DNA of 64,000 bases, from positions 82,548,315 to 82,612,314 of the forward strand of contig NC_092628.1 in the NCBI RefSeq assembly GCF_039555335.1, in the 5' to 3' direction. The stretch is from Amphiura filiformis (Eukaryota > Echinodermata > Ophiuroidea > Amphilepidida > Amphiuridae). Both the position numbers and the translations under genes were made by a program. How positions within the stretch are numbered: the first letter of the stretch is position 1; each line of letters opens with the position of its first letter. Below the pieces are notes generated by a model that was given only the letters and a program-made list of their open reading frames with translations, did not search any database and had not been told where the DNA came from. This document shows positions 1,690-63,937 of the stretch, piece by piece.

Positions 1690-2025
1690 AACCTTATTGT
1701 GCTTGCTAATTTAAGACTCGGTTGAAACAAAATTAAGGATCGAATGCATTTCAGTGTCCAAAAAGGCAAAATTATCGTCAAAGTTCTGCCGAAATCTGCA
1801 CCCTGAAGGGTTCAGAATTCGAATCAGGAACAAAAATATCCGATCTTTGCGATCAAAAACACAAAATTACAACTTTAAACATACTATTGGCAAAAACATT
1901 ATTACCAAACAATATACATGTAGAATAGAAAATTCGACGTCAATTTCTCAAAATATTGAAAAAACATGCTCACTAGACATTGAGAAAGTACGCAATCTAA
2001 TTCCCATTCAAACGCGTGGGAAACT
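1690..2025 (+). repeat. Dispersed repeat, inverted relative to 63207-63533
   Basis: The sequence beginning CCTTATTGTGCTTGCTAAT and continuing through GCCGAAATCTGCACCCTG matches the reverse complement of 63207-63533 along its length. A 97-codon open frame (1754-2047) lies in this copy, and the other copy has a partly similar but different frame. Neither resembles a family I know, so I treat it as a repeat rather than a gene. Confidence 0.7.
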
Positions 2026-8173: not shown

Positions 8174-8515
8174 CTAGACTGCGGAACTCAGTCCTCAATG
8201 ATAGTCAGTCATTTATCTTTTGGTTGTTATATGACTATCATTTGAGGGACTGAGTTGTTATAATATATCTTCCGAGGTGCAATTTCAGACAATAGCTGGG
8301 GATTAGTGGGGCAGAGGTTATCTATTGAATCCTTTCATGACCACTGAAGCATAGTCAAGTCTGCCAAGGACACTCGGCACAAATTGAAAGACCATCTGAA
8401 CTCTCGACAAAAGAATGCATGCATGTCAGGTCATCGACACCAATTTGGTGTTTGTTATGACACCAATTTGGTGTTTGTTATGCACCTCGAAATATGTACC
8501 TTAAAGTCTGTATCT
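8174..8515 (+). mobile_element. 342 bp non-autonomous element, copy 1
   Basis: Nearly identical to 60045-60392: I count about four substitutions and a single 6-base indel. It is flanked by the 9-base direct repeat AGTCCGCAT (8165-8173 and 8516-8524), a likely target duplication. The 5' third forms a hairpin (AACTCAGTCC... with ...GGGACTGAGTT). Near the 3' end, a 23-base unit GACACCAATTTGGTGTTTGTTAT stands twice in tandem. It is non-coding, and the superfamily is not assigned. Confidence 0.8.
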
Positions 8516-9838: not shown

Positions 9839-9897
9839 TCAGTACGCCAGTGACCATCCTCTATTGTTAATAGGCCTATGCATAGTTGTGCTTATTG

Positions 9898-13560: not shown

Positions 13561-16130
13561 TAGCATTCCCCTCAGACTTCCCAAATGATCGGGTGTGTGT
13601 GTGGCGGGGGGGGGGGGGGGGAAGGGTGCCATCCGGTATCTTTTCTCCAGGGCGGCACCATCTCAGCCCCCCGGGGTAAGTTAATGAATAAGTAAAAATT
13701 ATAGGCCTATTCAATTCCTCTGTCCCTGTATGTTGACTACCCACCAAGTTTCGTGCCCATATGACAGTTTTTAGTAATTTGACCTCGACCCCTGGGTGAC
13801 CTCGGATGACCCCGAAATGACCTTCCAAAAATTTGACTTTAAGTGTTGACTGTAGGCCTACCCACCAAGTTTCATGCCCATATGACAGTTTTTATTAATT
13901 TGACCTCACATGACCCCTGGGTGACCTCGGATGACCCCAAAATGACCTTCCAAATAATTGACTCTAAAATTGCTATGCAATAATTATGAGCCCCGGGGGT
14001 AAAATTAATTTTCCAAACGGCTCGCCAAAATCGCTTCCCCCCAGCTCGCCAAAAATCGCGTGCCCCCCCTCTCGGCCCGCCAAAATGATACACCAAATGA
14101 CTTCAATTTGGACCTTCAATTGGCAAAAGTTTCTAACTCTAAGAATATCCCCCCTCCAGCTGATGAATAAACAAGTAGAAGTGATGCACCAAACGGTTTC
14201 AATTTGAACCTTCATTTGGCAAAAATTTATGAGGGGGGGGACATCCCTCAGACACCCCTTGCGTATGGATATCAAACAAGTGAAAAAAAAAGATGCACAA
14301 ATGGCTTCAATTTGGACCATCATTTACCAAAAATGTCCAACTTCTGAGCAGACACCCCGTCCTACGTATGGATAAACAAGTGCATGCCCGTTTTCTCTTC
14401 TGGGTCCACGAATTGCTTCATTTGGGCCTTCATTTTCACTTTTTCTAACCATAATTTTACACTATTATAGTGTCAAAATCGTCCACCAAATGACTTCAAT
14501 CGGGTTTTCATTTTGCAATTTTTTCCAGATTCTTAGGGGGTAACATTCCCCTCAGACTTCCCAAATGATCGGGTGTGTGTGGGCGGGGGGGCGGTAGGGT
14601 GCCATCCGGTATCTTTTCTCCAGGGCGGCACAGACCATCTCAGCCCCCCCCCCGGGTAAGTTAATGAAGTAAAAATTATAGGCCTATTCAATTCCTCTGT
14701 CCCTGTATGTTGACTACCCACCAAGTTTCGTGCCCATATGACAGTTTTTAGTAATTTGACCTCGACCCCTGGGTGACCTCGGATGACCCCGAAATTACCT
14801 TCCAAAAATTTGACTTTAAGTGTTGACTGTACCCACCAAGTTTCATGCCCATATGACAGTTTTTATTAATTTTATTAATTTGACCTCACATGACCCCTCG
14901 GATGACCCCAAAATGACCTTCCAAAAATTTGACTTTAAGTGTTGACTGTAGGCCTACCCACCAAGTTTCATGCCCATATGACAGTTTTTATTAATTTGAC
15001 CTCACATGACCCCTGGGTGACCTCGGATGACCCCAAAATGACCTTCCAAATAATTGACTCTAAAAATTGCTATGCAATAATTATGAGCCCCCCCCGGGGG
15101 GTAAAATTAATTTTCCAAACGGCTCGCCAAAATCGCTTCCCCCCCAGCTCGCCAAAAATCGCTTGCCCCCCCCCTCTCGGCCCGCCAAAATGATACACCA
15201 AATGACTTCAATTTGGACCTTCAATTGGCAAAAGTTTCTAACTCTAAGAATATCCCCCCTCCAGCTGATGAATAAACAAGTAGAAGTGATGCACCAAACG
15301 GTTTCAATTTGAACCTTCATTTGGCAAAAATTTATGAGGGGGGGGGGACATCCCTCAGACACCCCTTGCGTATGGATATCAAACAAGTGAAAAAAAAAAG
15401 ATGCACAAAATGGCTTCAATTTGGACCATCATTTACCAAAAATGTCCAACTTCTGAGCAGACACCCCGTCCTACGTATGGATAAACAAGTGCATGCCCGT
15501 TTTCTCTTCTGGGTCCACGAATTGCTTCATTTGGGCCTTCATTTTCACTTTTTCTAACCATAATTTTACACTATTATAGTGTCAAAATCGTCCACCAAAT
15601 GACTTCAATCGGGTTTTCATTTTGCAATTTTTTCCAGATTCTTAGGGGGTAACATTCCCCTCAGACTTCCCAAATGATCGGGTGTGTGTGTGGCGGGGGG
15701 CGGTAGGGTGCCATCCGGTATCTTTTCTCCAGGGCGGCACAGACCATCTCAGCCCCCCCCCCGGGTAAGTTAATGAAGTAAAAATTATAGGCCTATTCAA
15801 TTCCTCTGTCCCTGTATGTTGACTACCCACCAAGTTTCGTGCCCATATGACAGTTTTTAGTAATTTGACCTTGACCCCTGGGTGACCTCGGATGACCCCG
15901 AAATTACCTTCCAAAAATTTGACTTTAAGTGTTGACTGTACCCACCAAGTTTCATGCCCATATGACAGTTTTTATTAATTTTATTAATTTGACCTCACAT
16001 GACCCCTCGGATGACCCCAAAATGACCTTCCAAATAATTGACTCTAAAAATTGCTGTGCAATAATTATGAGCCCCTCCCCGGGGGTAAAATTTCCAAACG
16101 GCTCGCCAAAATCGCTTGCCCCCCCTCTCG
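13100..16130 (+). repeat. Higher-order tandem array, period about 1.0-1.1 kb, about 2.8 copies
   Basis: Successive copies start near 13112, 14086 and 15189 at ATGATACACCAAATGACTTC. Each runs through the minisatellite units, a segment with CTCAGACTTCCCAAATGATC, a block of GACCTCGGATGACCCC repeats, and ends in the left part of the C-tract element (ATAATTATGAGCCCC, then CTCGCCAAAATCGC). The second and third copies are much more alike than either is to the first, so the last doubling is recent. Confidence 0.85.
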
Positions 16131-27570: not shown

Positions 27571-27690
27571 CTAACGTGCTGCTCTGGTATGGGTTGGTAG
27601 TGCTTGAAGCTGCTGCTTGAAGGCGTCGATTGAGGGCGCTCCAGCTACTTCTTTGGGCAACTCATTCCATTCTCTCAATGTCCGGGGGAA
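27571..27690 (-). pseudogene. C-terminus of the minus-strand LINE protein
   Basis: After a second frameshift near 27690-27700 the frame continues with FPRTLREWNELPKEV and ends at a TAG (27573-27571). The W-N-x-L-P pattern is the standard C-terminal mark of CR1-like proteins and is also seen at 61187-61507. Confidence 0.8.
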
Positions 27691-28922
27691 AAAGGAGAGC
27701 CGGTGGACATCCTTTTGATGAAATCATTTCTCAGACTGTGTTTGTGCTTCCCTCTAGTACTGATAGTCTGTTCTGCTGCTTCCAGGTAGTTGGTCTTGTC
27801 TATACCTACAAGGCCATTGAGGATCTTATACAGCATAGTCAATCTGCTGTTTTTCCTACGATCTTCCAATGTGCTCCATTCCAAGTGTTCAAGCATGGAA
27901 GTTACACTAGCGTCTCTCTTGAAATTATGGACACACAATCTGGCTGCCCGTCTCTGGATCCTTTCCAAGCTGTTGATGTCTTTCTTCACATGCGGATCCC
28001 ATACGCAACTAGCATATTCCAGAACTGGTCTCACTAGTGTCTTATAAGCAGCTGTTTTCACTTTCTTGGAGCAAAACCAGATGTTTCTTTGCAGGAATCC
28101 CAGTACTCTACTGGCTTTTGTGGTCACCTTTTTTATGTGTTCTTTCCACTTCATGCTGCTTTCTAGTTCAGCTCCCAGGTATGGATGTGATTTAACTTGG
28201 TCAAGTTCCTTGCCACAGAAGATGATTGGTTTCGATGGAGGATCACGCTTAGTTGAGACTTGAAGGATGGAGCATTTAGATGGATTAAATGACATCTGCC
28301 ACTTGTTCTGCCATTCTTCAAGTTCTAGAAGATCTTTCTGAAGAGAGTCAATGTGGGCGGATGTTTTCCCTGAAGAATAAACTAAGCAATCATCTGCAAA
28401 GAGTCTGGTTTTATTTTGGAGTTGGTTTGGAAGATCGTTTATGTATAGCAAAAACAGTAGTGGTCCGAGTACTGTGCCTTGGGGTACTCCAGACACCACA
28501 CGTTTAGAGGAAGAGTATTTGCCATCACACACGACTTGTTGTTTACGGTCTGTGAGGAAGACCCTAATCCAATGGTTGATGGTTCCTCGGATTCCATAGT
28601 AATCCAATTTCCCTAAAAGACGCTCATGAGGTACTTTGTCGAACGCTTTAGAGAAATCTAAAACGCCGACATGGGTGGTCTCGTCATCTTCAATAGACGA
28701 TGTGAAGTCATGAGCTGTCAGAAGTAGTTGGGTTTCAGTGGACCTCTTGGATCGGAACCCATGCTGGCTATCAGTGAGAATATCAAATGCTTCTAGATGG
28801 TCCATGATATGGGAGTGAAGGATATGCTCCATCATTTTGCATATGACACTTGTAAGAGATACTGGTCTATAGTTCTCAGGCTTGGTCTTATCCCTTTTTG
28901 TAGACCCCACATATGTTTGCAT
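27675..28922 (-). pseudogene. Minus-strand LINE, reverse transcriptase
   Basis: This frame carries NYRPVSLTSV, HGFRSKRSTETQ, VLDFSKAFDKVPHERL, PQGTVLGPLLFLLYINDLP, the catalytic FADD (28389-28400) and the thumb segments PYLGAELESS, RPVLEYASCVWDPH and RIQRRAARL. It is joined to the upstream frame by a shift in the A/G run at about 28889-28900 and is cut off at 27675 by the second shift. All core motifs are intact, so the damage is limited to two indels and the copy is fairly young. Confidence 0.9.
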
Positions 28923-30888: not shown

Positions 30889-31107
30889 GTTGATAACGGT
30901 AGCTTCAGTGTGGATACACTTCGCTGGGTTCACAAAATTACCCCTGGTACTCTTCACAAAGTTCACTGACTGTGCTGTAAAGATGATTACAGACTGCTGC
31001 TTATACTTCACGCTGCCAGATGCTGCTGCTGTACACAAAACACACTTCTCAATATCACTGATGGAGATGGTAGTGTTGGCTACAAGGAAGTAAATTTCTT
31101 CCCTTCT

Positions 31108-34100
31108 GACGCTGCTGGAGAAATTACACACGGTACACTTCACAAAGTTCACTAACTGTGCTGTCAAGATGATTACAGAATGCTGCTTTACACTTCTCGC
31201 TGTAAGATGCTGCTGCTGTACACAATACACTTCACAATATCACTGATGGAGATGGTGACTACACAATATCACTGCAGGAGATGATAATAGTGGCTACAAA
31301 GAAGTAGATAAAAGATTCTTCTCTTCTGATGCTGCTGGAGGAATTACACACGGTACACTTCACAAAGTTCACTAACTGTGCTGTAAAGATGATTACAGAA
31401 AGCTGCTTTACACTTCACGCTGTCAGGTGCTGCTGTTGTACACAATACACTTCACAATATCACTGATGGAGATGGTGATGGTGGCTACACAATATCACTG
31501 ATGGAGATGGTAATGGTGGCTGCAAGGAAGTTAATAAGGTTTCTTCCTTCTGATGCTGCTGGAGAAAATACACACGGTACACTTCACAAAGTTCACTAAC
31601 TGTGCTGTAAAGATGATTAGAGAATGCTGCTTTACACTTCACGCTGTCGGGTGCTGCTGCTGTACACAACACACTTCACAATATCACTGATGGAGATGGT
31701 GATGGTGGCTACAAAGAAGTAGATAAAAGTTTCTTCTCTTCTGATGCTGCTGGAGAATTTACACACGGTACACTTCACAAAGTTCACTAACTGTGCTGTA
31801 AAGATGATTACAGAATGCTGCTTTACACTTCACGCTGACGGATGCTGCTGCTGTACACAATACACTACAATATCACTGATGGAGATGGTGATGGTGGCTA
31901 CAAAGAAGTAGATAAAAGTTTCTTCTCTTCTGATGCTGCTGGAGAATTTACACACGGAACACTTCACAAAGTTCACTACTGTGCTGTAAAGATGATTACA
32001 GATTGCTGCTTTACACTTCACGCTGTCGGATGCTGCTGCTGTACACAATACACTACAATATCACTGATGGAGATGGTGATGGTGGCTACAAAGAAGTAGA
32101 TAAAAGTTTCTTCCTTCTGATGCTGCTGGAGAAATTACACACGGTACACTTCACAAAGTTCACTAACTGTGCTGTAAAGATGATTACAGAATGCTGCTTT
32201 ACACTTCACGCTGTCAGATGCTGCTGCTGTACACAACACACTTCCCAATATCACTGATGGAGATGGTGATGGTGGCTACACAATATCACTGATGGAGATG
32301 GTAATGGTGGCTGCAAGGAAGTTAATAAGGTTTCTTCCCTTCTGATGCTGCTGGAGAAAATACACACGGTACACTTCACAAAGTTCACTAACTGTGCTGT
32401 AAAGATGATTACAGAATGCTGCTTTACACTTCACGCTGACGGATGCTGCTGCTGTACACAATACACTACAATATCACTGATGGAGATGGTGATGGTGGCT
32501 ACAAAGAAGTAGATAAAAGTTTCTTCCCTTCTGATGCTGCTGGAGAAAATACACACGGTACACTTCACAAAGTTCACTAACTGTGCTGTAAAGATGATTA
32601 GAGAATGCTGCTTTACACTTCACGCTGTCGGGTGCTGCTGCTGTACACAACACACTTCACAATATCACTGATGGAGATGGTGATGGTGGCTACAAAGAAG
32701 TAGATAAAAGTTTCTTCTCTTCTGATGCTGCTGGATAAATTACACCCGGTACACTTCACAAAGTTCACTAACTGTGCTGTAAAGATGATTACAGAATGCT
32801 GCTTTATACTTCACGCTGTAAGATGCTACTGTTGTACACAATACACTTCACAATATCACTGATGGAGATGGTGATGGTGGCTACACAATATCACTGATGG
32901 AGATGGTAATGGTGGCTGCAAGGAAGTTAATAAGGTTTCTTCCTTCTGATGCTGCTGGAGAAAATACACACGGTACACTTCACAAAGTTCACTAACTGTG
33001 CTGTAAAGATGATTAGAGAATGCTGCTTTACACTTCACGCTGTCGGGTGCTGCTGCTGTACACAACACACTTCACAATATCACTGATGGAGATGGTGATG
33101 GTGGCTACAAAGAAGTAGATAAAAGTTTCTTCTCTTCTGATGCTGCTGGAGAATTTACACACGGTACACTTCACAAAGTTCACTAACTGTGCTGTAAAGA
33201 TGATTACAGAATGCTGCTTTACACTTCACGCTGACGGATGCTGCTGCTTTACACAATACACTACAATATCACTGATGGAGATGGTAATGGTGGCTACAAA
33301 GAAGTAGATAAAAGTTTCTTCTCTTCTGATGCTGCTGGAGAATTTACACACGGAACACTTCACAAAGTTCACTACTGTGCTGTAAAGATGATTACAGATT
33401 GCTGCTTTACACTTCACGCTGTCGGATGCTGCTGCTGTACACAATACACTACAATATCACTGATGGAGATGGTGATGGTGGCTACAAAGAAGTAGATAAA
33501 AGTTTCTTCCCTTCTGATGCTGCTGGAGAAATTACACACGGTACACTTCACAAAGTTCACTAACTGTGCTGTAAAGATGATTACAGAATGCTGCTTTACA
33601 CTTCACGCTGTCAGATGCTGCTGCTGTACACAACACACTTCCCAATATCACTGATGGAGATGGTGATGGTGGCTACACAATATCACTGATGGAGATGGTA
33701 ATGGTGGCTGCAAGGAAGTTAATAAGGTTTCTTCCCTTCTGATGCTGCTGGAGAAAATACACACGGTACACTTCACAAAGTTCACTAACTGTGCTGTAAA
33801 GATGATTACAGAATGCTGCTTTACACTTCACGCTGACGGATGCTGCTGCTGTACACAATACACTACAATATCACTGATGGAGATGGTGATGGTGGCTACA
33901 AAGAAGTAGATAAAAGTTTCTTCCCTTCTGATGCTGCTGGAGAAAATACACACGGTACACTTCACAAAGTTCACTAACTGTGCTGTAAAGATGATTAGAG
34001 AATGCTGCTTTACACTTCACGCTGTCGGTGCTGCTGCTGTACACAACACACTTCACAATATCACTGATGGAGATGGTGATGGTGGCTACAAAGAAATAAA

Positions 34101-35640
34101 AGTTTCTTCTCTTCTGATGCTGCTGGAGAATTTACACACGGTACACTTCACAAAGTCCACTAACTGTGCTGTAAAGATGATTACAGAATGCTGCTTTACA
34201 CTTCACGCTGTCGGATGCTGCTGCTGTACACAATACACTACAATATCACTGATGGAGATGGTGATGGTGGCTATCGGGGGGCGCAGAGTCACTACCAAAC
34301 TGATGCTACTGGAGAAATTACACACGGTACACTTCACAAAGTTCACTAACTGTGCTGTAAAGATGATTACAGAATGCTGCTTTACACTTCACGCTGACGG
34401 ATGCTGCTGCTGTACACAATACACTACAATATCACTGATGGAGATGGTGATGGTGGCTACAAAGAAGTAGATAAAAGTTTCTTCTCTTCTGATGCTGCTG
34501 GAGAAATTACACACGGTACACTTCACAAAGTTCACTAACTGTGCTGTAAAGATGATTACAGAATGCTGCTTTACACTTCACGCTGACGGATGCTGCTGCT
34601 GTACACAATACACTACAATACCACTGATGGAGATGGTGATGGTGGCTACAAAGAAGTAGATAAAAGTTTCTTCTCTTCTGATGCTACTGGAGAAATTACA
34701 CACGGTACACTTCACAAAGTTCATTAACTGTGCTGTAAAGATGATTACAGAATGCTGCTTTACACTTCACGCTGACGGATGCTGCTGCTGTACACAATAC
34801 ACTACAATATCACTGATGGAGATGGTGATGGTGGCTACAAAGAAGTAGATAAAAGTTTCTTCCCTTCTGATGCTGCTGGAGAAATTACACACGGTACACT
34901 TCACAAAGTTCACTAACTGTGCTGTAAAGATGATTACAGAATGCTGCTTTACACTTCACGCTGTCGGATGCTGCTGCTGTACACAACACACTTCACAATA
35001 TCACTGATGGAGATGGTGATGGTGGCTACAAAGAAGTAGATAAAGTTTCTTCTCTTCTGATGCTGCTGGAGAATTTACACACGGTACACTTCACAAAGTT
35101 CACTAACTGTGCTGTAAAGATGATTACAGAATGCTGCTTTACACTTCACGCTGTCGGATGATGCTGCTGTACACAATACACTACAATATCACTGATGGAG
35201 ATGGTGATGGTGTCTACAAAGAAGTAGATAAAAGTTTCTTCCCTTCTGATGCTGCTGGAGAAATTACACACGGTACACTTCACAAAGTTCACTTAACTGT
35301 GCTGTAAAGATGATTACAGAATGCTGCTTTACACTTCACGCTGTCGGCTGCTGCTGTACACACTACCCTTCACAATATCACTGATGGAGATGGTGATGGT
35401 GGCTACAAAGAAGTAGATAAAAGTTTCTTCCCTTCTGATGCTGTTGGAGAAATTACACACGGTACACTTCACAAAGTTCACTAACTGTGCTGTAAAGATG
35501 ATTACAGAATGCTGCTTTACACTTCACGCTGACGGATGCTGCTGCTGTACACACTACCCTTCACAATATCACTGATGGAGATGGTGATGGTGGCTACAAA
35601 GAATTAAATAAAGTTTCATCCCTTCTGATGCTGCTGGAGA
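31108..35640 (-). repeat. Array of about 24 monomers of 189 bp, LINE 5' region
   Basis: Using GATGCTGCTGGAGA as marker, unit starts fall near 31108, 31328, 31552, 31743, 31932, 32119, 32343, 32532, 32723, 32948, 33138, 33328, 33517, 33741, 33930, 34119, 34302, 34490, 34680, 34868, 35058, 35248, 35438 and 35626. Normal spacing is 187-191; five units are about 220-225 because TATCACTGATGGAGATGGT and its flank are doubled. 31328-32722 and 32723-34118 are two copies of a seven-unit block, offset about 1,396. The unit before 34302 has a replaced segment (GGGGGGCGCAGAG). The many short open frames on both strands are products of the array. Confidence 0.9.
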
Positions 35641-35994
35641 AATTGTACACAATACACCTCACAAAGTTCACTGGTTGTACTTGGTACTCTACACAAATAA
35701 AATACAGTCTGGGTGATGTAATCGCTGATGAAGAAATTGCACACTATACTCACTGGTACTGTGTTATAATAATGATGAACACAGGATGATCTAGTTTTGT
35801 CAAGACGTCAATGTCTAATAAGCTGTACACTATGCACTTCATAAAAATCACTTCAGAACTGATGTCAATAAAAATCAAGTCGGATGCTGCCGAAATGATA
35901 TTGCACACAAAACAAAATGTCACTGAAAATTGCACAGCACTAAAAGACCATTAATTATAAGTTGATCACTGCCACTGATAATACTACGATAACA

Positions 35995-36410
35995 TTGCAC
36001 TGGTATAAATACACACTTCAAGAATCGGCTGCTTCCACACAAAAATGGGCGTGGCCTGAATGTCTATGACTACAGTAGTCCAACTTCACAAGGTTCACAG
36101 ATAAAATGCTTGCACGGTATGAGATACACTTAAAAACATCTAGGCACTTGGTAAACACAATATTTTTATATTTTCTGGTAAATTGTTCACTGGTAATACT
36201 TAGATAACATTGCACTGGTAATACACACATCAGACGGCGGCTGCTTCCATACAACTGGGCGTGGCCTGGTAATGGCTAAGGTAGCACAACTTCACAAGGT
36301 TCACAAATAAAATGCTGGTCACAGGATGAGATACACTTTAGAACATCTAGTTTCATAATAAACACAATATTTCATAATTTTATATTTTCTGGTAATGACG
36401 TAATTCAGGT
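35995..36410 (-). repeat. Second, diverged repeat type at the outer end of the LINE array, two units
   Basis: Two units of about 205-215 bases share GGCTGCTTCCA, GGGCGTGGCCTG, CAACTTCACAAGGTTCACA and ACACAATATTT. TTCACAAAGTTCAC in the main array resembles the shared CTTCACAAGGTTCAC, so this may be an older monomer class. Confidence 0.7.
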
Positions 36411-37619: not shown

Positions 37620-40600
37620 TTGGGGCCATCTTGAAAATTTGAACATATAACATATCACAACTTCAATTACTTCATTACTTCAACATACCACGTGACAAGC
37701 AAAGACAGAAAACGTCATACTGCAGTTACTGTCCATTTTCCTATACACAATACACAGTGCTCTTACCATTGACGCGTAACCTCTACAAATAGCGTATGTT
37801 AGAAGTATGGGTAACTGCCTAGTTAACGTCGGTGTGCGAAAAATAACCGGCCAATTCTAGAAAATATAGTTTTGTCACATGTCCTAAATTTTAGCTAATT
37901 TAGATGTTTGGAAATATTCGTACTTTGGTGTTTTAGGAAGGATATGTAAACGACAGATAACACCAAAAATATGAAGAAATTATTTCCAACCTGTGTTAAG
38001 TCTGCAAACCACCATGCTTCTCATTTTCAAGAACGCTGGTTAACAATAAGCAGAGTATTGTCTCATTTCGTAAACAAAAGCCCACACAGAATTGTTCTCT
38101 AGCGTTCGCTTAATAATCGTTCACCCAACTGAAACTATAATACCAGCTCATTGCTCCATTGTACATGTAAAGCAGAAACATATGTTGCGTGTATTTAACC
38201 AGAGAAGATATGATTTAATCAGTTGAGCTGTTTTCAATGAGTGTTATCTTGGTTTAATAGCTTTTAATGGGGTTTATTTAAGTCCTGCAAAGGTCGTGGT
38301 GAATTCCACTTTAGACATGACTGCATCATGTACCGTATTTTGGAATTTTATCAGCTTAAAAACATTAATGTGTAGAGCTACCATTAGGCCTATTAATATT
38401 GTTGAATTCTCAGGCGCATACAAACAATACGAGGGGCCTATGATACATACACAATTCATTTCGTGCATGCACGTGCCCTGCAAGGTAGGGAGCCTAGCCT
38501 ACCATTTTTCTTGTAAGACGGTCTGGATTCGTAGTCCACGTAGGTCCCCAAAGTTCTTTCAGATATTAAAAGATTAAATTCCCATAAAGACGAAACAGTA
38601 ATCTTTAGTGGGGACCTACGTAAATTTTACATAAAATTTTCGCCATCAATTCAGTGTTAATTTTTATTATTCAGAAAATATTTTGGCGTATATAAAATTG
38701 AAATAAATTCTGCTTCCTAAACCACATAAACTGAAGCATGATTGGGTATCACGAATCGCTATATATGATCTACAGTTAATATTCAAATATTCTTTTACAC
38801 ATTATGATGCTTCAGTTTTTACACAAACAAGAATTTGTCTTTAAAAAAGATAAGTTCACGGATCAGGTGTATAGTACATATACTTTGAGCTACTTTGGTC
38901 TAACATTTAATATTCATATCTAACCTACTCTGCACTTATTCAACCTCATTTTGCATTTAGTTTTTTAAGCCACCTCGAAGCCACCTACACTACAGGATCT
39001 CATTTTGCATTGGGTTTTTATTGCGTTGCAAAGTAGCAAAACTTTCTGGCCCAATTCGTGACTGGAAAAGGCTATCCCCTCTTACAACCTATCAACAGGT
39101 CTGATTTCTACAATGAGGTGTTACCGGGTTTCATGAGATAATAATACCAAATCTAAACACCATGAAATTCAATACATCACGACCAAGCTCACATTGGGCG
39201 CCCCATTCCTTTTTAAAGGAATTTTATTAAGCCACCTCCAGGAAACAAATTTGGCTATAAACTACGAAGTATAAAGTCTAATAAATAAATAAAATAAATA
39301 AAATAAAATGAAAATTGTACATGTATGCAAGATGCCTTATTACTAAAGTAAATAAATCACACAGCTATTTGCTCTTGCTAGTTTTTGTCAGGGTCAGGGA
39401 TATTTGTCTCATAGTCCTGCTTTTATGAACACTAATATTATACAGGTTACTACACATGGGTTATTACAAGAGTCAATAAACATTTGACCAATTAACTATA
39501 GAGAATGGACTTAGTTTTATACAATGTAGTTATATTGACCCTTTTCTGAAGTAAGTCGCCTGCTGCATAGTTTTATTTACAGATGATATGTTTACTTTGT
39601 GATTAGGCCTGACCATGACCTGCTAGTTTGATTAACCAATCAGTTATGTGCATTGTCAGCATGTGAAGGCTATAAGCCAATTGCAAACATATTTATAAAA
39701 AAAAGGCTAAAAAATTCCTACACTGAGCAGACTCTTTGCTGGGTTTAAGGGCTAAATAGTAAGTTGTCATGTGGGGCAAGATTAGATAAAGGCATACAAA
39801 CTAGGGTATGAGATAATAGGAATTATTTCCTAGCCTCTTAACCACAGGGTTGGGCTATATAGCTATTCAAGACACAGGGTATGTAAGGGATAAACTGTGC
39901 ATATGAGATGTGGGGGCAAATGGCATCATTTCACTGACATGAAAAAATATTTCATTGAAAACCCTCCCACTCAGCTATTTTAAAAAGGTAATCAGGCTTC
40001 CTCAGCATATCACATGTGTTATGGTATTATTTTGCAATTGCCCCGTGGTACTTTATGGAGGGAGACTTTTATTTAAATACGGTATAAAGGACGAGTGGCC
40101 AGTATTCGGTAGGGTCTACATAGCTTTACAAATTCAGAGTCTTGCAATTATGATTTTAGAGCCAAAGGGGTAACTATATATTATAAAATTATAAAAGGTT
40201 AGAAAGTCAGTATTAAAAGCAAGTCAGTAAGATACACCTCTACACTACAGGTTGCACTCCATAGTAGGCCCACAGCTAAAAACGACACTGACAGAAAAAA
40301 ACTTAAAAAGGGGAGAACTTTGTCATTTTTATTTTTTTCTACAATGCAAAATTGATCATTAAGAGGAGGAAGCAAATTATATTGACAATATGTTAACTTT
40401 AATTTTCCACTTTTATGCAAGAAATAAAAGAAGAAGATACAAATTCCCTTTAAAAGGGAAGCCAGCTTCAATGCAGAAGAGGTCTTGTAATTAGTTTAGG
40501 TGGAAGGCATTTTTAGGATCACTCTTTTTATGATCCATCATGTTCCATGACAGTCCGGGATGACAGTCCACCAAACCAGGTGGTGGTCGCATTGCATTTT

Positions 40601-43310
40601 CATCGTCAACCGTGTAATTGAATGGGATTATTTTGAAAATTTAAACCGCTTGAAATTTCACAAACAAATAGGCCTATATGTTAATAAATAATATAAATAC
40701 AAGCTAAAACCATGGGGTTCGATAATAAACCCCCAAAACTAACTTTCAGTATTTGGAAAATGCCATACGGCCGGGCCGTTTCACAAGCTGCATGCCGGCT
40801 CTATCATGCCATTCGCCGCCTGCTCCAAACCATCAATGATAAGAACATGCACACAGAAAAACCAAACATTAACTCCTATAACTTCCTGTCAACTCTTTAA
40901 TTAATTACTCCAAATTGTTCTGTCTTTTTGTCTTTTCTGCCTTTTAGGCCACCCTTAGCTCATTATTAATATAAAGAAATACACTGCAGTTTTTAGTTAA
41001 TTGGCTAAAACTGCCATCCTACTTGCCTTATACATGCACATTAATTTTATATTAATTTATATATTAATTCGCAATTTATACATAGCACATTATAAAATGT
41101 ATAAAGACTGATATTGTTCAATAGGCCTACATGTATATCGATTGTACCCATATCAAAAATAGGCCTTGAAATTACATCGAATTTTTCCTGTTGAAAAGAC
41201 AAAACTGATGTTTAAGATATCAATTATTTCATAAATTACATTTTGAGTCATTTTTATCCATAAAACGATACAGGATATAGGATATTTTTACTTTGACTTT
41301 TAGGTCCATAAAGGTTTTAATCATGTTATTATCAATACACTCACATCTCATGATGTGTTGATCTCCAGGAGGTCTGCAAATGTAAATCTAAGAACGCCTG
41401 ATAACAAGGATACTATCATTTTCTTTCGTTGATATGCTGTGGAAACTATTATAGGCCTGGCATATATATAACTTTTAATGTTATATTTCCTTCAAACCAT
41501 AACTTTTGAAATACTCACTCGTTTTCATTCGTTGAAACGGCAAAGCATACTTTCTTTTTCTTACAAATCGAATAACAGGTCTTATATATATATATTCACC
41601 ATAAAAAGTTCCGCAAAGTAATTCAAACCAATGCTAGTACCCCGTAATCTCTTTAGCAAACAAAGACGATCTCCGAATTAGATAGCCAGCTCTTAGCTGG
41701 CGAAAATCAGAATCCTCAAAGGGCAGGGACAGAGTTGTTGTTGTTGTTTTGGCCAAATAATAATTTTATTGTTTTGATTACGTTCGATAAATTTGGTTTT
41801 ACCATAGACCATTTATCTTTCCTATTTTGGAGATTATAAAAGACATAATGTACAATTTTGGTAAAATTTTAATTTTGTTCTTCTTTTTTGTCAAAATTTA
41901 CTATGATTACATAATATTACTGCTACGGTACTAGTAACACTTTATCTGTCAAGGTAGACTTCTCCGTAGTCCACTTGCCCATTTTGCATACTCTGGCCAT
42001 TACATTTAAAGCATAAAACTCTGATTTATATTGATTTGTGTGCAACTGATAGATTTTCACATCTGTATCTGATCTTTTCAGTCACCGCACTCCCTCTGTT
42101 AGCTTCCAGGATTTTCGGGGTTCGCTATCAATAAACTGGTACTTCCAAAATCAGAATTGTTCAGTATTAAAGTCAGCCATTATAATTATGCAAGATAATG
42201 TTGCATTCAGTTACTTTTATTGTCACTAATTATCTGATATTTTTAACTCTTTATGACCATTTTACTATTAAATACTTTAATTTTAATAAACATCAGTATA
42301 ATTTTGTATTCAACGAAATGGGTTCATCATGACTAATAATAACATATTTTTAAATAAAATTCGACTATGGCATAGTCTACTGTCAAGGGGGTCTTCTGAT
42401 CATTTTAACCTGAGACTAGTAAACCAACAGTCTCAGGTTTACTAGTCTCAGTTTTAACTAAGCGAAAATAATGAGGTAAAAAGTAAAAACCGACTTAGCC
42501 GCTTAACTGTGGAGCTTTGGGGATCCCAGTTTTATTATAAAACCTCTAAATTTTACTTTGGAGGCTTAGTCCTTTACATGGTATTTCAGATAGCATTGGG
42601 CAATTACAATCATGTAAGAAGTGCAAATTTGAGCAAAATATGCAGCAAATGATAGCTTTACTGTAATACCAGAAGATGGGAGAAATATCTCTTTTGCTGA
42701 TCAAGCAGACCCCCCCCCGATCCAAAACAGCCTGGAGTGACTGTGAAGACTGCATGTATTATAAACACAAGTGTGTATAACTTTGTTTGCCAAGTCATGG
42801 AACCTTTTAAAATGTGTTTGAAGAGCATAATTAATATCCATGGTTAAACAAACAACCATGAACAAGATCTTGTTCTGTTTAATACATGTACTGCTCTGTG
42901 GTTTAGGTTGTGCAAATTACCAGTTTCGTTTGATTTTGTTTACTTACGTTTTTTAATCTCCATGTGTTATTCAACCTCTTTATGTTCACTCAGCATGCAG
43001 GAGAATTTTAGATGTGCTAGAACATTGTAGGCTTTACAAAAGCAAAACTTTAATGATAATTATAATGAGTATAGTAGAAACGAGATGCAGGGTATCTTAA
43101 TATTTTAATGACATTATCAATCAAAGTTTTTTTCCTCCATCCCCTATACACAAAACCCAATGGCATAAAAATATTTAAATTCCTCATCAAATTTATAATA
43201 TGCTAATTAATCACATCCCGTGAATAATAAAATAATAAAACAATAAAATGGATGATATTTGATATTACCATATTTTGCATAACATCAGAGAAGATGAGCT
43301 CATTTTCACA
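37620..43310. other. AT-rich intergenic stretch without a supported gene
   Basis: I see no exon. Minor items: an inverted repeat around 38535-38625 (ACGTAGGTCCCC with GGGGACCTACGT), (AAATA)n at 39285-39310, and the hairpin at 42409-42456. Otherwise the sequence looks unique. Confidence 0.5.
42409..42456. other. Short perfect-arm hairpin
   Basis: CTGAGACTAGTAAACC pairs with GGTTTACTAGTCTCAG around a loop of about 12 bases. Confidence 0.7.
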
Positions 43311-45450: not shown

Positions 45451-45771
45451 TTCCGTTTATTTTATTTTATTTTTCTCTCACTTTTTTTCCTTTTTCTTGC
45501 TCGTTGCTTTCTTTCTGACTGCAGCGATTGATTGTTTTTGCCCGGTTTTTTCATGATATAATTCAGGAATTTTTATGCTATTCTTTTCTAATAGGCGCGG
45601 CCTATGAATAGGCCCCCTATATTTTTACAAATTCGATTAACAAAATATTGGTTGTTGGTTTTGTTATTGTTGTTGTAGTTATTGTTGTAGGCCTATATAT
45701 TGCATAATCAGGGTATAAATAGGCCTACTAGGCCTATTATAGCATGGGAAGCATTGATTTATTTCACGACA

Positions 45772-46598
45772 GATAGGGTACCTGCAGGTAATATGGGACC
45801 ATTAAGGACGTTTAGCTTATGTGCATAAAAACTATAGAAGATATGCCCAAAAGAGATTGTTATGATGAACAACCTGTCCTTTAAGATTAATAAAACAGGC
45901 AATGTTATCTTGTTTTTATGTTTGTTTGGACGCTATGACGTCAAAATGACGTCATCGTCAAGTGTCCCATATTACCTGCATGTGCAGGTAATATGGGACA
46001 CTGTGTTATCTCTATGGTGAAAATCAAAATGTTCAGAAAATCACTCTTTTGTTCTAAAAACATTTTTGTTACATGATTTTGAATGTTAAATGCAAATTTC
46101 AACAAGAAAATTCAATTTTCTAAATAGTTTTGCTTTTCCCATTGACAATGCACACAATTTCCTATGTGTCCCATATTACCTGCACTCATTCAGTTGAAAA
46201 TCAGAGAAAATAATCATTTATAAAAGGAAAGTGCCACTTGTCAGTGGAATTTTACCTGCTGATAAGCTTAACCCATCACCTAAAGATCATAAAAAGTGAC
46301 AAATGCACCCTCAGTACCAGAGTATTTAGATACACAATCATAAAATGTGGCGTCATTGATTTTATATCAGGCCAAAAAAAACGACGTAAATTTTTGGGCA
46401 ATTTCACTCTGTTTAGCATTGATTTCCAAGAGTTTGATACACAGACTCCAAAACTGCATTTCTAGAAGCACAATTGATGTATCTAAACACTTAATAAATC
46501 AACTTAAAGTGTGTACCTTCTCTAAGCTACTTTTTGTTAAAATGAAATCAGGTGTCCCATATTACCTGCTGTCCCATATTACCTGCACCTACCCTATC
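45772..46598. mobile_element. Non-autonomous inverted-repeat element with six copies of a 17-mer
   Basis: The first 28 bases (45772-45799, starting GATAGGGTA) and the last 28 (46571-46598) are inverted repeats with 26 matches. The inner part of each is the 17-mer GTCCCATATTACCTGCA. The same word also occurs at 45964-45980, inverted at 45983-45999, at 46168-46184, and (first 16 bases) at 46554-46569. The interior is AT-rich without a supported protein. The family is unassigned and no target duplication is clear. Confidence 0.75.
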
Positions 46599-49747: not shown

Positions 49748-52300
49748 GTTACCTCGGCCTAAGGACATGTTTAAAATTATTAATACCTTTCTAAGACTTA
49801 ATAATAATTACTATAGTGTGTGAAACGTGCAACGTACAAAACTTGTCTTCATTTCCATTGAGTAGTATACACAAACTAGTATTCCGGAGTAATAAATATC
49901 GATACCAAAAGTCTCATATGTTATCATATCAGGTAAAATAAAAATTTTCATGTTAAAAACACTTGTGGTTGTACTGCTCATCGATTCTGTAGTCCAAACT
50001 TTGATGGCCAGCGGATCTCAGCCGGGGATCGCCATTACTTCATCGGGGTAGATTGTTCTGTAATGAAAGAAAGAAAAAAATAATATTTTAAAAATATGAA
50101 TTAGAGCTATATCCAAATCTTTCCCCCCCCTCCACACACACCCCCCCACCCCCACACCCCCACCCCCTCTCAATTTTGAGATTTTGGCATGTGAAGAAAA
50201 TTTATAATTTTCTCATGATTGCTGTTGTGTGTTGAGATGTTTCTTTTACTAGGCCTGGTATCATATTCATGAACAAAAAGTACATAAAGATTTGTACGAA
50301 GTCTAATTTAAATTTATGCATTCTAATTTTTGGAAAAAGCATGATTTATTCTTTTAACCAAACACAAAAAATAAAAATTAGAGCAAAATTGTGGCATATA
50401 GGCCTACTCAAGATTTTGAATGCTTAAACATGTTCCAAGTCTTTGATTTTTGTGACTCGATTGTCAGAAAAAAATGTCGAAAATGCATGTTTTTGGCTTT
50501 CCCCCCCCCCCCCCAAGAAATTAGTACAATAGTGAACGTTTTCTATTATCTACAGTCAGTAGTCAGTACCAAATGAATGATATCCGATTGAGCTATGTTT
50601 CGTTTGCCAGACTTGATATTATGTGGTTTTTTTTAATCCAATAAAATCCAATAAAATCAGTGCTTTATTTTTCTGGAATGGGGCAGTAAATTACCTCATA
50701 TACCTTGTACATTGCCATACTTTTAAACTTACCAAAATAACCTCGAGTTATGGTGCATGGGAATCATCTATATCACTCAGATTAGAAAGCATTCCTATTG
50801 ACATGACATTGGTAGTTCGACCTGTAGGCCTAAATGGAAAAAACAAAGCATACCATTTTATTTGTCAAAGGTGCTGCTGTTAATCAGTCGCAGAGTTTCA
50901 TGCATTTAAAATTTGCAATTCAATAATGTAGTAATATTTAGGCCTAGGCCTACATGATCATGATGGTATCTAAAAATCATACTTCAGTGAGCACTGAGAA
51001 TTCAATCAAATTAATCAGTCACAGGAATGATGAGCAATCTATTGATATGCCTGATATGCCTGTTTGACCAAACTTTCATAATACCAGTTATACCACGATG
51101 ACCTGATAAATGCCCTAGCATGAGTCAGACAAAATATTAAACAAACGGTAGATTTTATATTAAAATAATTAATTAGGCGGAGCTTCAAGTTCAATAATAA
51201 GCCTGGAACAGCCTGAGTCCAGGCCTAGCTAGCCTGTAAACATAGAGCCTATGTAGGGCATGTCATCACATAATTATGCCCTATGCCCCTATAAATGGTA
51301 CAGACCGGTATTAAGGCTAGGGCCTAGGATGTTCCACTACCAAGCTTGAACTTGAAGCCTGGCCTATTATTTACATAGACAAAATCCTACAATACATCTT
51401 GAAGATGGGCCTACGGAAAATATCTGTCTAGTGGGTACCGGTACTGATATAGTTTTTGCCTAGGCTACCATGGCTACTGCCCATGATAGCCTAAGCCCTA
51501 GGCTAGCCAGCTATGACCATCATGACCAGGCCAGGGCCGCCCACATTTAATTCTGTGGGTAGGCCTAAACGTTTTACTACCGGCTTCTAACACCACATGC
51601 ATCACTCTACCGTGAGTAACTCCTGAGTCCTTACATCTTCATTTCAAGCTGTTTCATTTCAAGCTGGAACTCATTGGAAAAAAGCCCGGACTTCCATAAA
51701 TAAGGGAACATTGAAAAAGCTTGCGGTCCGAGCTTCGTTTGCTGATAAAAAATCCACAAAGCCTCGGCTAGGCTATTCTCATGTACACGGTATTTACATG
51801 TAATTTGTTAAGCCTAACCTAATCGATTCCTAAGCTTGACTAAACCAATACCACAGCCTAAAATCGTCACTAATAATGAGTGAAGATTTACATATATAGG
51901 GGCTTTTAAGTGGTAAAACAGTATTAATATATGTCACGAACAATCCGACGTTTCTTACCTTCACTGTCATGATGCGGCCCTATGCTATTGCACTGTGCCG
52001 TGAGTACCGGGTATCGGTATACTGTCACTGCCGTGTCCATGATTGCAGCTGTGTACAAGCTTGGCCGATCACCTCCGCTTTCAAACTCTGGTTACAATTC
52101 TCACAACTCTTCTCTATTCATTATGGAACATAATCCTTTTATTATGACTTTCAAAAATTGGTTCTGTGGCACATTTTTCCAGTTGCAAATACCACGGAGT
52201 GCAGTGGTCCGCTTCCGTAACAAGCAGGCTTCCGTGGTTGGCATGCAGACAAATGCACTTAACCTGGACTTAAACCTACCCCCTGCCAGGTTTAAGTTAA
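49748..52300. other. No gene seen
   Basis: It includes a C-rich run with CCCACACCCCCACCC-type words (50127-50170) and a zone dense in TAGGCCTA and CCTAGGCC words (50930-51580). No exon is supported. Confidence 0.5.
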
Positions 52301-53463: not shown

Positions 53464-54667
53464 TTAGGTTGTAGCCTCGGCGCTCATTAGCAGCTTTATC
53501 GTTGAAGACAAGTTGGAAAACCGTTATGCTGTGACAATGGGAATACACATCAAACATGGTTTAATTTCATGATTACATGAAATCTGATTATCAATGGAAA
53601 AACTTTGGCTGGAGAAGTTGAAGCTGACGTTCATGGCGACACTTTGGATGTGATAATTTGACATCATGGATAGTTTTGTGCAACATTTGACGTATTTTTG
53701 TGCCATTTAATACGCGGTGAGTCAGCAGGCCGACTGGCATGCAGGCTAGGCTCGACTAGGCCGCAATCATGATCGTGCATGCGTGTCTACATCATAAGGT
53801 TGAAATGATGGGATTGAAAAGACCGGCTAGCTATTTGATTTCTCTACATACGAGATGTATGTGCTGTGCCGTGTTCAACGTACAAACGGCATGTCATGAT
53901 CATGATGATGTTTCATTTGAACTGCAATGTATGGTATGATACGCCTAGCCGCGCCTATGGCCGGCTTCATTGCTGTTCAAATACATGTACTAAAGTAGGC
54001 TATTGCAATTTTATTGCGTTGATATAATTCGGAATAATTCGTTTTAAAGTATTTGCTTCCCCAATTCCCATGCGTGGTTGGTCATGTTGGTGGTATGTAG
54101 GCCTATGCCAGTTTTTTTACATTCTACTGAGTACTGTTGCAATATTTTTGCATGCATACCCATGTTCGTTTCAAGACTATGACTGAGAAATTTGCTTTTT
54201 GTTTGTTAAGATAAAAATAAAAATAAAATGCAAGAATCATCTTTCCCCACACAATATCTCTTACAAACAAGGTGTTGATATTGGCCCTTTCGATGCAAAA
54301 CAAAGCACAAATGAAGGAAAGAAAACAAAACAATAATGTTTTTGATTTTTTATTCAATTACACATACAAAAAAGTAATGGCCTATGAAAAGACCACCCTA
54401 AATATAATATTAATATTATTTTAGTCCTGAATACAAAATATAATAAACAAGCATAAAAGAATCTGATACGAAAATTTGTTACTCTGAAACGTTACAATCG
54501 TAATTTTCAGTCAAAAAATCCACAAGAAATGACTCTTTATACAACTTAGGCCTAGGCCTAGGCTATATTTAAAAAACAGAAACGGCTGCCTGCATCTGGA
54601 ACTCTTCATATCTGAAAGTTTGAAGGTCTTATTTCATACATCAGAATTATTTCTAAGATTGCAAAAT
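53464..54667. other. No gene seen
   Basis: AT-rich to the right. No exon or repeat boundary is supported on either strand. Confidence 0.5.
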
Positions 54668-56242: not shown

Positions 56243-56563
56243 GTAATTCAGTCTATATATTAAAATGCAATCAAATGTTATTATGGTTATCGATTTTCGG
56301 CTTCACCTATGCCAATGAAAAATATAAGTTGATTATAAGCTTAAAGCTTACTTGCATGCTTTCCAAAAATGATCAAACAAACATCTACATTATACCTGAT
56401 CTCATGTACCAACATGACCAATACCTTGTGTATTGGTACATGATTCGGCGAGTATACTTCAGCAATAGCGAATAAGTGGTCGTTTTTTACTCTGTTCAAA
56501 ACGTCACATGTACACCAAATAGTGAATACAGCCCCCGAAATGGTCTACTTTTAGCGTGCCTTA

Positions 56564-58852
56564 TGCATTCGTCAATTGCAGTCCCGGCTCCTGGGTACCC
56601 GGGGCACTACGGGGAAGTCGGCATCAACTCGCTTCGAAAAATCGAGTAACTGGCGTCTTCCGACGGTACCGCACTAATACCCGGCAATGCGGGGCAATAT
56701 TTGATGACGAGTTTCCGGCGAAGTCTCGGCCCTATACCCGGGAAATTGTGCGTGTCCCGCCGACCTCCCGGCGAAGTCCCGCCCGTGCGTGTCAGTCAGT
56801 ACCGTGCTAGATAGCGACTCATCATCATCATTTTAGATAAAAGAGTTTCTGAGCTGGAGAATTTGTTGTCAACGGCATGTGACAAACATCCCGCAACACG
56901 CTCTGTGTGTGCTTTGTGTATATTTATGTGTCACACGTTATATGAATATTTAATGAGATGGGATATCGGTTGAAATCCCACAAAAGTCCTAGAAAAAATA
57001 TTTTTTAGAAACCATGCAAATAAATTGCATGTACGATAGTTATTGTTCGTCGAACAGTTATTAGAATTGAAAAATGATTTTTTTAAATGTGATTTTGGAA
57101 ATTAATTTCAGCGAGTTAAATCACAAAAAAGGGCACAAAATGTGAATAGCAAAACAGCAGCGCCTGATACACGGATTTTCTTGAAGTAAAAGTTGTAGAA
57201 TAAACCTGAGATGATTATCACAGCTTCAATAAACTATTCTGCTTTGTCATATTCGAATAGAAAGCTATAAAATGTTTAAACGATCAGGAGCCAGCAATAT
57301 TTCGCTAGTTCCAAACAAGGTCAATCGGGAAAACGGAGCAATTTCGATCACGTGCAAATCGCGCTCTGATTGGCTAACATGCACGGGAGTTCAGACACAG
57401 GTCAAAGGTTGCGTGACCACCAAAACTTTGTTTGTTGACAATTTGTGTGGACACACCATGGTCGAATTAAGTTGAAAAAAGAGACTGGGTGGTAGGCAAA
57501 TGTGCATCAAACCCCTTCTGCCCTCACTGCTTAATAATATTTGCGAATTCGCTATATCAATGTGAATAATTTCATTGTGCGACTACAACTTGTTTTAAGC
57601 ATCGTCGTAGTATGTGTATTGCCATTGATTGATGTGTCCGATTGTGATAAAATGCATTGCCGATTTTATGAATACAATTGAATGTGATTGAGGACATGTT
57701 TGGGAAATCTTGCCTTAAACTTGTCTTAAATTAATCAAGTTCAATTTTTCAATTTTCTTGTTCGTTTGTTTTTTACACCTTTTGAAATTGAATTTCTAAC
57801 ATTATTTTATGTTTATATTAATTTTGCCTTCACATTTAATTTGCATTTTGCACTTGCTTGTTCAGAGTTTACTGATAGTGTTGGCGTATTATGGTCTTGT
57901 CGCGACTGCCGAAGAACTCTTGTAGTAGTTTTGACATTTTGAAGTCAAAACTGGACCACACAAACCTTGCCTCTAACACACTAACTTTAGGTCCGAAACT
58001 ACTACTAAGCATTGAAGCAAATATCGGACTGGCAATTTATAAGAAGGAAGTAATGCTTTCCTTTTGCCGCATGACATATCCAAGAATATGTACCAGAAAC
58101 TGAGTGTTCTCGTCAAGCTGAAGTCAATGCTTGTATTAGTCGCAGTCATAAATACTGGCTCAGATTGTCTGCCGCTTTGATGGTGATTTTGAGTAACTCT
58201 GCAAGCCAAACTTTTCGGTACTGTCCGAAGCAGTGAATCGGACCTACTTTTTTCGCCGATTGAGTGATCGGCCGCTCTTCGGTAGCATTTCCCTGAAGCC
58301 GAGATGGATTGACAGTATCAGGGGTTGCCTACTTTGATAAGAAAGGGCTTACACTTTTACTACGTCATCAAGGTTTGAATGACAGATTGAAAAAAATCGC
58401 CAATTTTGAATATAAATTCCACTACTTTGGATTATTCAAGTGAGTATATTTCAAACTGATATATCACGCATATTTATATATTAAAAGGACAAGTTCATTG
58501 AGTAAATAAAAGAATAAAGCGAACTTTTTACGCAAGTTTCCATCTTCACGAATCACGGCACTATTTTCAGCAGCACATTGCCTACATAGAATGGTGTATG
58601 GTGGAAGTCGGTCGCGACGTTAAAAAAAAAAAATCATTTATACCACAGCAACGAAATTTTTTGCCGATTACGAGTCTCTGCCGAAGTACCGACAAGTTCC
58701 CGGGCCCCACCCCGGCTCCTCCGACTCCACGGCGAGTACTGCGAAATCTTCCCGGCTAGCGGGCGGAAATTGCTGACGAGTTCCCGCCATGTCCCGCTAG
58801 GTCCCGTAGTGCCCCGGGTACCCAGGAGCCGGGACTGCAATTGACGAATGCA
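56564..58852. mobile_element. 2.3 kb non-autonomous DNA transposon with 50 bp terminal inverted repeats
   Basis: The ends are 50 bp inverted repeats (56564-56613 and 58803-58852), beginning TGCATTCGTCAATTGCAGTC. TTA flanks both sides (56561-56563, 58853-58855) as a 3 bp target duplication. Just inside each end lies a GC-rich zone with AAGTCCCG and CCGGCG words, unlike the AT-rich centre. No transposase frame was recognised. A TTA duplication would fit PIF/Harbinger. Confidence 0.85.
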
Positions 58853-59059
58853 TTAAGTAACTCCGAAACAGTTTAGTCAAAGTTAAAAATGCGATCCCCA
58901 ACCCTTTGCTTACCTTGGACGAATTTGTAGTAATTTCCGCTAGCTCCGTGTTGAAAAATGTCCGGTACTTGCCCGGTACAAACATAGAAATGGCCACATT
59001 TGCTTCAGTCCTGGTATGAATATTTCTTCCGTAATCCAATGGTTCCAACGTGGGCATCA

Positions 59060-60044: not shown

Positions 60045-60392
60045 CTAGACTGCGGAACTCAGTCCTCAATGATAGTCAGTCATTTATCTTTTGGTCGTTA
60101 TATGACTATCATTTGAGGGACTGAGTTGTTATAATATATCTTCCGAGGTGCAATTTCAGACAATAGCTGGGGATTGGTGGGGCAGAGGTTAGGCCTATCT
60201 ATTGAATCCTTTCATGACCACTGAAGCATAGTCAAGTCTGCCAAGGACACTCGACACAAATTGAAAGACCATTTGAACTCTCGACAAAAGAATGCATGCA
60301 TGTCAGGTCATCGACACCAATTTGGTGTTTGTTATGACACCAATTTGGTGTTTGTTATGCACCTCGAAATATGTACCTTAAAGTCTGTATCT
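60045..60392 (+). mobile_element. 348 bp non-autonomous element, copy 2
   Basis: Same element and orientation as 8174-8515. It is longer by exactly six bases, because TA at 8319-8320 reads TAGGCCTA here (60190-60197). About four substitutions separate the copies. The flanks are ACTAACTA-rich, so a target duplication is likely but its limits are ambiguous. Confidence 0.85.
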
Positions 60393-62900: not shown

Positions 62901-63206
62901 TAGAACTTTACCTCCATATTAGGGATGTTCATAAAATTTTGAAGTTCAATATTTTGAGCTGAAAGTTCTTTCATTTGAAAGAGAATCAAATAAGGGGTCA
63001 ATCGTGTTTCTAGTGCATATACTTTCACTCAGTTGTAGTAACTACAAATTTCTAACATTTGAGGACTTGTTCTCAAGTTTTAGCAGGTGACACACGGTCC
63101 CGCACACGGTGCTCTGAAGTTGCTCGAGATGTCTAGCGGTGAGCAAATTCTTGGCTACATTTCTCGAGCAAGTTGTAGTATAAATTATATTGGCTAGGAT
63201 TATGTT

Positions 63207-63533
63207 TCCCACACGTTTGAATGGGATTGGATTGCGTACTTTAAATTTCCCAATGTTTGGTGAGCATATTTCTCCAATATAAGTTGACATCGAATGTTCT
63301 ATTCTATATTGTTTGGCAATAATGCCTTTTGCCAATACTATGTTTAAAGTTGTAATTTTATGTTTTTGATAGCAAAGATCGGATATTTTTATTCCCGATT
63401 CGAATTCAGAATCCTTCGCAAGGGTGCAGAATTTGGCAGAACTTTAATGATAATTTTGCCTTTTTGGACACTAAAATGCATTCGATCCTTAATTTTGTTT
63501 CAATTGAGTCTTTAATTAGCAAGCACAATAAGG
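63207..63533 (-). repeat. Dispersed repeat, inverted relative to 1690-2025
   Basis: The reverse complement starts CCTTATTGTGCTTGCTAATT and follows the left copy to the CCCATTCAAACG...GTGGGAAA segment. It lies just upstream of BCAS2 exon 2. A 97-codon minus-strand frame (63042-63335) overlaps it. Confidence 0.7.
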
Positions 63534-63937
63534 TGGGTATCAATTTTACATAAATAAATAAATAGTTTCAATGCAAACGGCACAGATCGCATAAGCCCTT
63601 TCGCAATTCCAGAATCATGATGCATCATGGGTATTAGTTTTGTACCTCAGGCCTGACATTTTTTCCATCCATAAATACGTTGTATACTATAAAAAATTAA
63701 AAAAACAAGCAAAAAACATTTGCTTTCTTCTGATACCCAAATCTCAATTTTGATGGGATAAAAAAAAGAAGAGGAAAGAGGCTGCAATTAGATGGCCTTT
63801 ATTATTCAGGGCTCCAACATATTTCTATGGGAGATTTTAGGCTTATGGATAGTTTGAATACGGGCACCTCTCAGGGGGGGGGGAGTCAAGAGAAACAACA
63901 TTACCAAATAAATAATTCTATTGTTTGATTTTTTCAG

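Follow-up and report, generated by a model that had tools for sequence, protein, structure and literature searches.

Frequent TAGGCCTA octamers in a 64-kb genomic window as possible footprints of a mariner-type transposon

The palindromic octamer TAGGCCTA occurs 34 times in the window, by which we mean the whole 64-kb stretch of DNA analysed, and its empty counterpart in aligned repeat copies is TA. We tentatively read most of these octamers as excision footprints of a TA-targeting, mariner-like transposon with ends beginning GGC, and we hold this reading to be plausible but slightly short of probable. The sites work like a footprint of the mariner type, and we do not assign them to that class.

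Abundance and sequence context of the octamer

In 100 dinucleotide-preserving shuffles the mean count of TAGGCCTA was 0.59 and the maximum was 3. The first-pass annotation had put the count at more than twenty where about one is expected by chance, and the observed number bears this out. After removal of three copies in a tandem array (14679, 14949 and 15788), 31 octamers remained, and merging of overlapping octamers left 29 loci. With satellite and array copies masked, TAGGCCTA headed the 256 palindromic octamers in over-representation, with 31 copies where about 0.5 were expected. The shuffles and this ranking exclude a composition effect as the cause, and the excess is genuine. Among all 8-mers in the unmasked window, a C homopolymer and two satellite words outranked it. 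Palindromic octamers with AT flanks were mildly enriched as a class (53 against 32 expected), so the weaker cases among other tetramers prove little alone. The coding regions of two LINEs (4257-7414 and 27675-31239) contain no copy of the octamer. Local clusters exist, for example at 45688-45736.

The flanks of the 29 loci are unrelated. Over 30 + 30 flanking bases, the median identity among the 406 locus pairs was 0.30, compared with 0.28 for random pairs, and the highest value (0.52) came from two sites 32 bp apart. These flanks rule out one abundant repeat behind the octamer, and dispose of the suspicion that it is simply part of a few abundant repeats.

The octamers show a preference for a purine before the first TA and a pyrimidine after the last. 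This R-TA..TA-Y arrangement was found at 18 of the 29 merged loci and its reverse at 2, against 27.4% and 21.9% for all TAs. The preference was supported by a binomial test (p = 1e-4) and by comparison with the flanks of 400 other TANNNNTA (p = 2e-4); this test, like that for chained units below, was chosen post hoc, after the data had been seen. Other TA-palindrome-TA units had R-TA-Y in 16 of 44 cases. The preference fits a TA-targeting enzyme.

Some units are chained. In five cases a GGCC unit has a TA in common with another such unit, where 0.78 were expected (p ~0.001). The partners were GGCC in two cases and CATG, TTAA and TGCA in one case each (Table 1).

Table 1. Positions in the window of empty and filled sites, chained units and candidate donor-type elements
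Feature	Position	Strand	Remark
Element copy, empty state	8174..8515	+	342 bp; 4 transitions and one indel against the other copy
Element copy, filled state	60045..60392	+	348 bp
Empty site TA in the 342-bp element copy	8319..8320	.	
Filled site TAGGCCTA in the 348-bp element copy	60190..60197	.	
Filled site, array unit 1	13853..13860	.	
Filled site, array unit 2	14949..14956	.	
Empty TA, array unit 2	14830..14831	.	
Empty TA, array unit 3	15939..15940	.	
Older octamer, common to three array units	13702..13709 (also 14679, 15788)	.	Diverged copy at 16903 reads TAGACCTA
TACATGTA	1915..1922	.	TA in the inverted counterpart (63299-63315; 84% identity)
Chain TAGGCCTACATGTA, two units sharing TA	41122..41135	.	
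Chain TAGGCCTATTAATA	38385..38398	.	
Chain TAGGCCTATGCATA	9871..9884	.	
Chain TAGGCCTAGGCCTA	50939..50952	.	
Chain TAGGCCTAGGCCTA, then GGCTA	54547..54560	.	
Candidate donor-type element, TA, GGC...GCC, TA	51174..51366	.	193 bp with both TAs counted; terminal inverted repeats imperfect, about 19 bp
Candidate donor-type element, TA, GGGTA...TACCC, TA	45774..46596	.	823 bp with both TAs counted; 18 matches over the first 20 terminal bases

Contrasts between empty and filled sites

Two copies of one element differ by exactly four substitutions, all of them transitions, and by a single indel, at which TA in the shorter copy corresponds to TAGGCCTA in the longer. The first-pass annotation had described this pair accurately, giving about four substitutions and one indel. 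In a tandem array at 13.1-16.2 kb, GACTGTACCCACC, which has the TA, and GACTGTAGGCCTACCCACC, which has the octamer, were each found twice, and the sequence around the site was otherwise near-identical. This had been taken as recurrence of the same 6-base difference in an unrelated repeat. The positions and sequences hold, but the carriers are sub-repeats of one array and therefore represent about one independent event. In both GGCC families that show the indel, the empty state is exactly TA.

In an inverted pair (1673-2024 and 63204-63555, 84% identical), one copy has TACATGTA and the other has TA. It was found in a catalogue of 318 distinct indels, 19 of them of 6 bp (three rows for the octamer and one for TACATG); the catalogue included much of the 30.9-36.4 kb satellite and was used solely to find this pair. 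An insert with TA duplicated on both sides and an empty state of exactly TA was seen in two GGCC families and one CATG pair, so that the independent contrasts from the one 64-kb window amount to about two for GGCC and one for CATG.

Direction of change and age of the sites

The array has a third type of sub-repeat, the outgroup GTTGACTACCC, which reads GTTGACTACCCACC in each of the three array units. Compared with it, the empty form differs by 2 bp and the filled form by 8 bp, which makes insertion the shorter path in the array. Parsimony favours the empty TA as ancestral there, gene conversion among units being possible. The pair at 8319 and 60190 has no third copy to compare in this way. The first-pass annotation had suggested insertion with a TA duplication, as left by a TA-targeting transposon or a repair process. 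The exact indel, the gain favoured in the array and the R-TA-Y preference agree with the insertion itself; transposition or repair would be its putative origin.

If octamers were gained steadily and decayed by substitution only, forms with one mismatch should be about as common as exact copies. Forms with the mismatch in the GGCC core numbered 5 in the unmasked window, against 7.7 expected under an order-3 model, and steady gain with substitution-only decay predicts about 15 more (p = 6e-6). From these counts, a mean divergence of TAGGCCTA above about 2-3% is disfavoured. Three observations count against a recent age. Forms with the mismatch at an outer position were in excess in the unmasked window (18 against 9.5 expected), TAGGCTA was in excess, and the octamer at 13702 is old, being present in three array units and a diverged copy. 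The outer excess was mainly CAGGCCTA (7 copies), which has a preceding pyrimidine in 6 of 7 cases, unlike the TAGGCCTA octamers. With the scarcity of mutated cores weighed against these observations, either most TAGGCCTA sites are young or their loss outpaces their mutation. Rough arithmetic with 31 sites, 4704 TAs and 2-3% divergence, assuming no loss, puts the gain per TA at roughly one-fifth to one-third of the rate at which a site is substituted.

Related forms

The three-base form TAGGCTA was found 13 times against 4.2 expected, and the two-base form TAGGTA/TACCTA was not enriched (12 against 21.8 expected). Longer G forms were rare but above expectation: TAGGGCCTA, TAGGGCCCTA and TAGGGGCCTA were found 2, 1 and 1 times, against 0.22, 0.03 and 0.05 expected. 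The flanks of TAGGCTA match R-TA-Y in 2 of 13 cases, which counts against a common origin with the octamers, and TAGGCTA may be unrelated to them.

Across the 16 palindromic tetramers, the enrichment of TA-XYY'X'-TA tracked that of TA-XYY'-TA (Spearman 0.63, p = 0.009), with GGC at the top of both. TACATGTA was second in excess (10 against 1.3-2.0), and TACCGGTA occurred 4 times against 0.3-0.4 expected. TACATGTA is presumably also a Tc1 footprint of C. elegans; our literature search surfaced no paper to this effect.

A footprint mechanism and candidate donors

Excision of mariner and Sleeping Beauty elements proceeds with a 3-nt stagger. A cut-and-paste DNA transposon of the mariner type would insert at TA and duplicate it, and we suppose an element with ends GGC...GCC. 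Excision cuts a few bases inside the ends would leave the terminal bases on the chromosome, on both sides, as 3′ overhangs reading GGC. Two 5′-GGC-3′ overhangs could pair through their self-complementary GC with a one-base offset and no mismatch, and gap filling would then produce TA-G-GC-C-TA, which reads TAGGCCTA. If all three bases paired, a G-G mismatch would remain and the rarer TAGGCTA or TAGCCTA would result. Each scar would supply an extra TA, open to another hit. Here we infer the identity of the donor, the 3-nt stagger, the annealing step and, outside the array, the direction of change.

The offset pairing predicts the order of products that was observed, with the four-base form far in excess (31 against 0.5), the three-base form less so (13 against 4.2) and the two-base form unenriched. 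Also in support of a footprint are the exact contrasts in two families, the unrelated flanks, the R-TA-Y preference, the few mutated cores and the chains with a shared TA. Against it, the product is far more uniform than the footprints described for other elements, which are reported to be variable and to depend on the element and the cell type (PMC3770610). The first-pass annotation knew of no described system that does this. Mariner and Stowaway elements are reported to make staggered cuts and to leave the target site duplication together with a small part of their terminal repeat (PMC4561436), which narrows that statement. It stands for the exact GGCC product and its abundance, for which no description surfaced in the titles and abstract openings listed from open-licence PMC literature on TAGGCCTA, GTAGGCCTA and GGCCTA.

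Two candidate elements, at 51174-51366 and 45774-46596, which match best among the TA-flanked inverted pairs that start with GG, make the footprint reading concrete rather than proving a donor role. The first has 16 matches over the first 20 bases of its termini, and its outer flanks are aattaat and ttattta. The second holds six copies of GCAGGTAATATGGGAC in both orientations, as internal repeats of its terminal motif, with three octamers 37-86 bp away on its left side. Its ends are GGG, not GGC, and its inverted match continues outward as far as GATA, which leaves its boundary uncertain; the TA may not be its target duplication. TA-flanked inverted pairs with at least 15 of 20 matches numbered 62 in the window, against a mean of 12 per simulated window, so that TA flanks can arise by chance; 2 of the 62 start with GG. 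For both candidates, a second terminal-repeat copy with the same flanks (2 mismatches) was absent from the window. No octamer site occupied by an inserted element was seen within the window, and Pfam detected no transposase domain in the 18 open frames scanned, which are part of all frames.

A donor with GGCC ends and 4-base overhangs was also considered and rejected. The scan for TA-flanked GG arms (10 bases, at most 1 mismatch) returned 21 pairs, 19 of which were pairs of octamers. The candidates found on closer inspection have GGC and GGG ends rather than GGCC ends.

Alternative explanations

The insertions could be made without any element. A cellular enzyme would break R-TA-Y, fill in TA on both sides, add GG to the 3′ ends and join them; it could be a domesticated transposase, a nuclease or an end-processing activity that adds G, as telomerase or a template-free polymerase might. 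The symmetry of TA-GG-CC-TA, the target preference, the many TAGGCCTA beside few visible donor elements and the longer G forms are all as such an enzyme would leave them. However, untemplated addition should yield a broad spectrum of lengths, yet the four-base form dominates. T before TA is also depleted (8 of 62), unlike in telomeric TTAGG joins, and this depletion rules out telomere-type joins. We consider an element-free enzyme unlikely, though a serious competitor.

A methyltransferase, repair or binding system might create or preserve TAGGCCTA, as proposed for GCGATCGC of cyanobacteria. Such a system would match a highly over-represented palindromic octamer and the skew of its one-off forms towards the outer bases, a bias likewise reported for HIP1 (PMC4390886). 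It is improbable, because the contrasts here are 6-bp indels rather than substitutions and because the outer excess is mostly CAGGCCTA, with its preceding pyrimidine.

Slippage between the two TAs, with the filled state old and TA derived, had been offered by the first-pass annotation as the alternative to insertion. Direct repeats of 2 bp that lie 6 bp apart are open to such deletion, and the old octamer at 13702 is in keeping with it. Loss alone cannot account for an excess of about 60-fold and leaves the origin of 34 copies in unrelated flanks unexplained, and the array favours insertion; we give it very little credence. We give about as little to the octamer as the discernible portion of a degenerate simple repeat (TAGGCC)n or of an unrecognised short repeat: two loci have two overlapping units, one then with a possible third, and local clusters occur, but 27 of the 29 merged loci are single units in unrelated flanks, Tandem Repeats Finder listed no (TAGGCC)n array in the window, and mutated octamers should be numerous if the repeat were old.

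Other elements in the window and searches elsewhere

The LINE types and the repeats point to an animal as the source of the DNA. Each of the two LINEs has two overlapping frames, which encode a PHD finger, an endonuclease and a reverse transcriptase. The LINE at 4257-7414 carries NPGP, presumably a 2A-like motif, and the PHD region of that at 27675-31239 resembles Pygopus. Among the 18 frames scanned, only the two LINE proteins matched Pfam. A Harbinger-like short element at 10422-10890 has 34-bp inverted repeats, GGGG ends and TTA on both sides, with relatives at about 9431-9833 and 16789. Its ends (GGGGTGG) drew attention to it as a source of the footprint, and its TTA flanks rule it out. 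A 2.3-kb element at 56563-58853 has perfect 51-bp terminal inverted repeats and is without a long open frame. At 30935-36372 lies a satellite-like array whose units measure about 189, 224 and 35 bp. No Rfam family and no tRNA was found in the window.

Patterns for octamer clusters matched 11 and 45 stretches in viral_contigs, some common to both, and the clusters were local; none of the contigs matched by these patterns had a scattered TAGGCCTA pattern like that of the window. Local TAGGCCTA clusters were seen in the IMG/VR contigs L007 (4561-4793, 7 copies), L038 (2626-3912, 8 copies) and L010 (6 copies), and that of L007 adjoins other palindromes. They are probably unrelated to the pattern in the window.

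The LINE proteins had no match in viral_contigs and matched one eukaryote-like contig in genome_contigs, L012, which has no octamer in its 4461 bases. This contig is filed under a Thiotrichales MAG, and its LINE reverse transcriptase is 53% identical to that of the window; it is probably eukaryotic contamination. In the 4.2 Mb of the host genome of L012 the octamer was found 6 times, less often than the reversed pattern, which was found 12 times.

Significance and comparison with known systems

Should most of the sites prove to be recent insertions, a single specific 6-bp change would rank among the leading indels of the genome. If they are footprints, TAGGCCTA would count the past hops of a low-copy element invisible to repeat annotation, and the dominance of a single product would show overhang sequence steering repair. 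If no element is involved, the process would be a new mutational one. It would amount to an active, near-uniform insertion of GGCC at R-TA-Y in an animal nuclear genome, with TA duplicated, at roughly one-fifth to one-third of the rate of substitution per site, and perhaps with other self-complementary tetramers (CATG, CCGG) inserted too; this we rather doubt.

PiggyBac-type elements excise seamlessly. As in the footprint reading, self-complementary overhangs give a uniform repair product, but the overhangs of piggyBac are its TTAA target and hence no scar or footprint is left. Small palindromic GC clusters in yeast and algal organelle genomes are likewise short palindromes dispersed in AT-rich DNA, some with preferred targets. 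Unlike the octamers, they lie in organelle DNA and have longer units.

The HIP1 and alternate highly iterated palindromes of cyanobacteria are also palindromic octamers in great excess, on the order of one per 1-2 kb (PMC4390886). The window differs in being eukaryotic, as judged here from its sequence, and in 6-bp presence or absence instead of substitution. Footprints of Tc1/mariner and Stowaway elements are similar in that a TA duplication flanks a few terminal bases of the element (PMC4561436). In contrast to those footprints, the window has one dominant and very abundant product, and its donors are candidates only.
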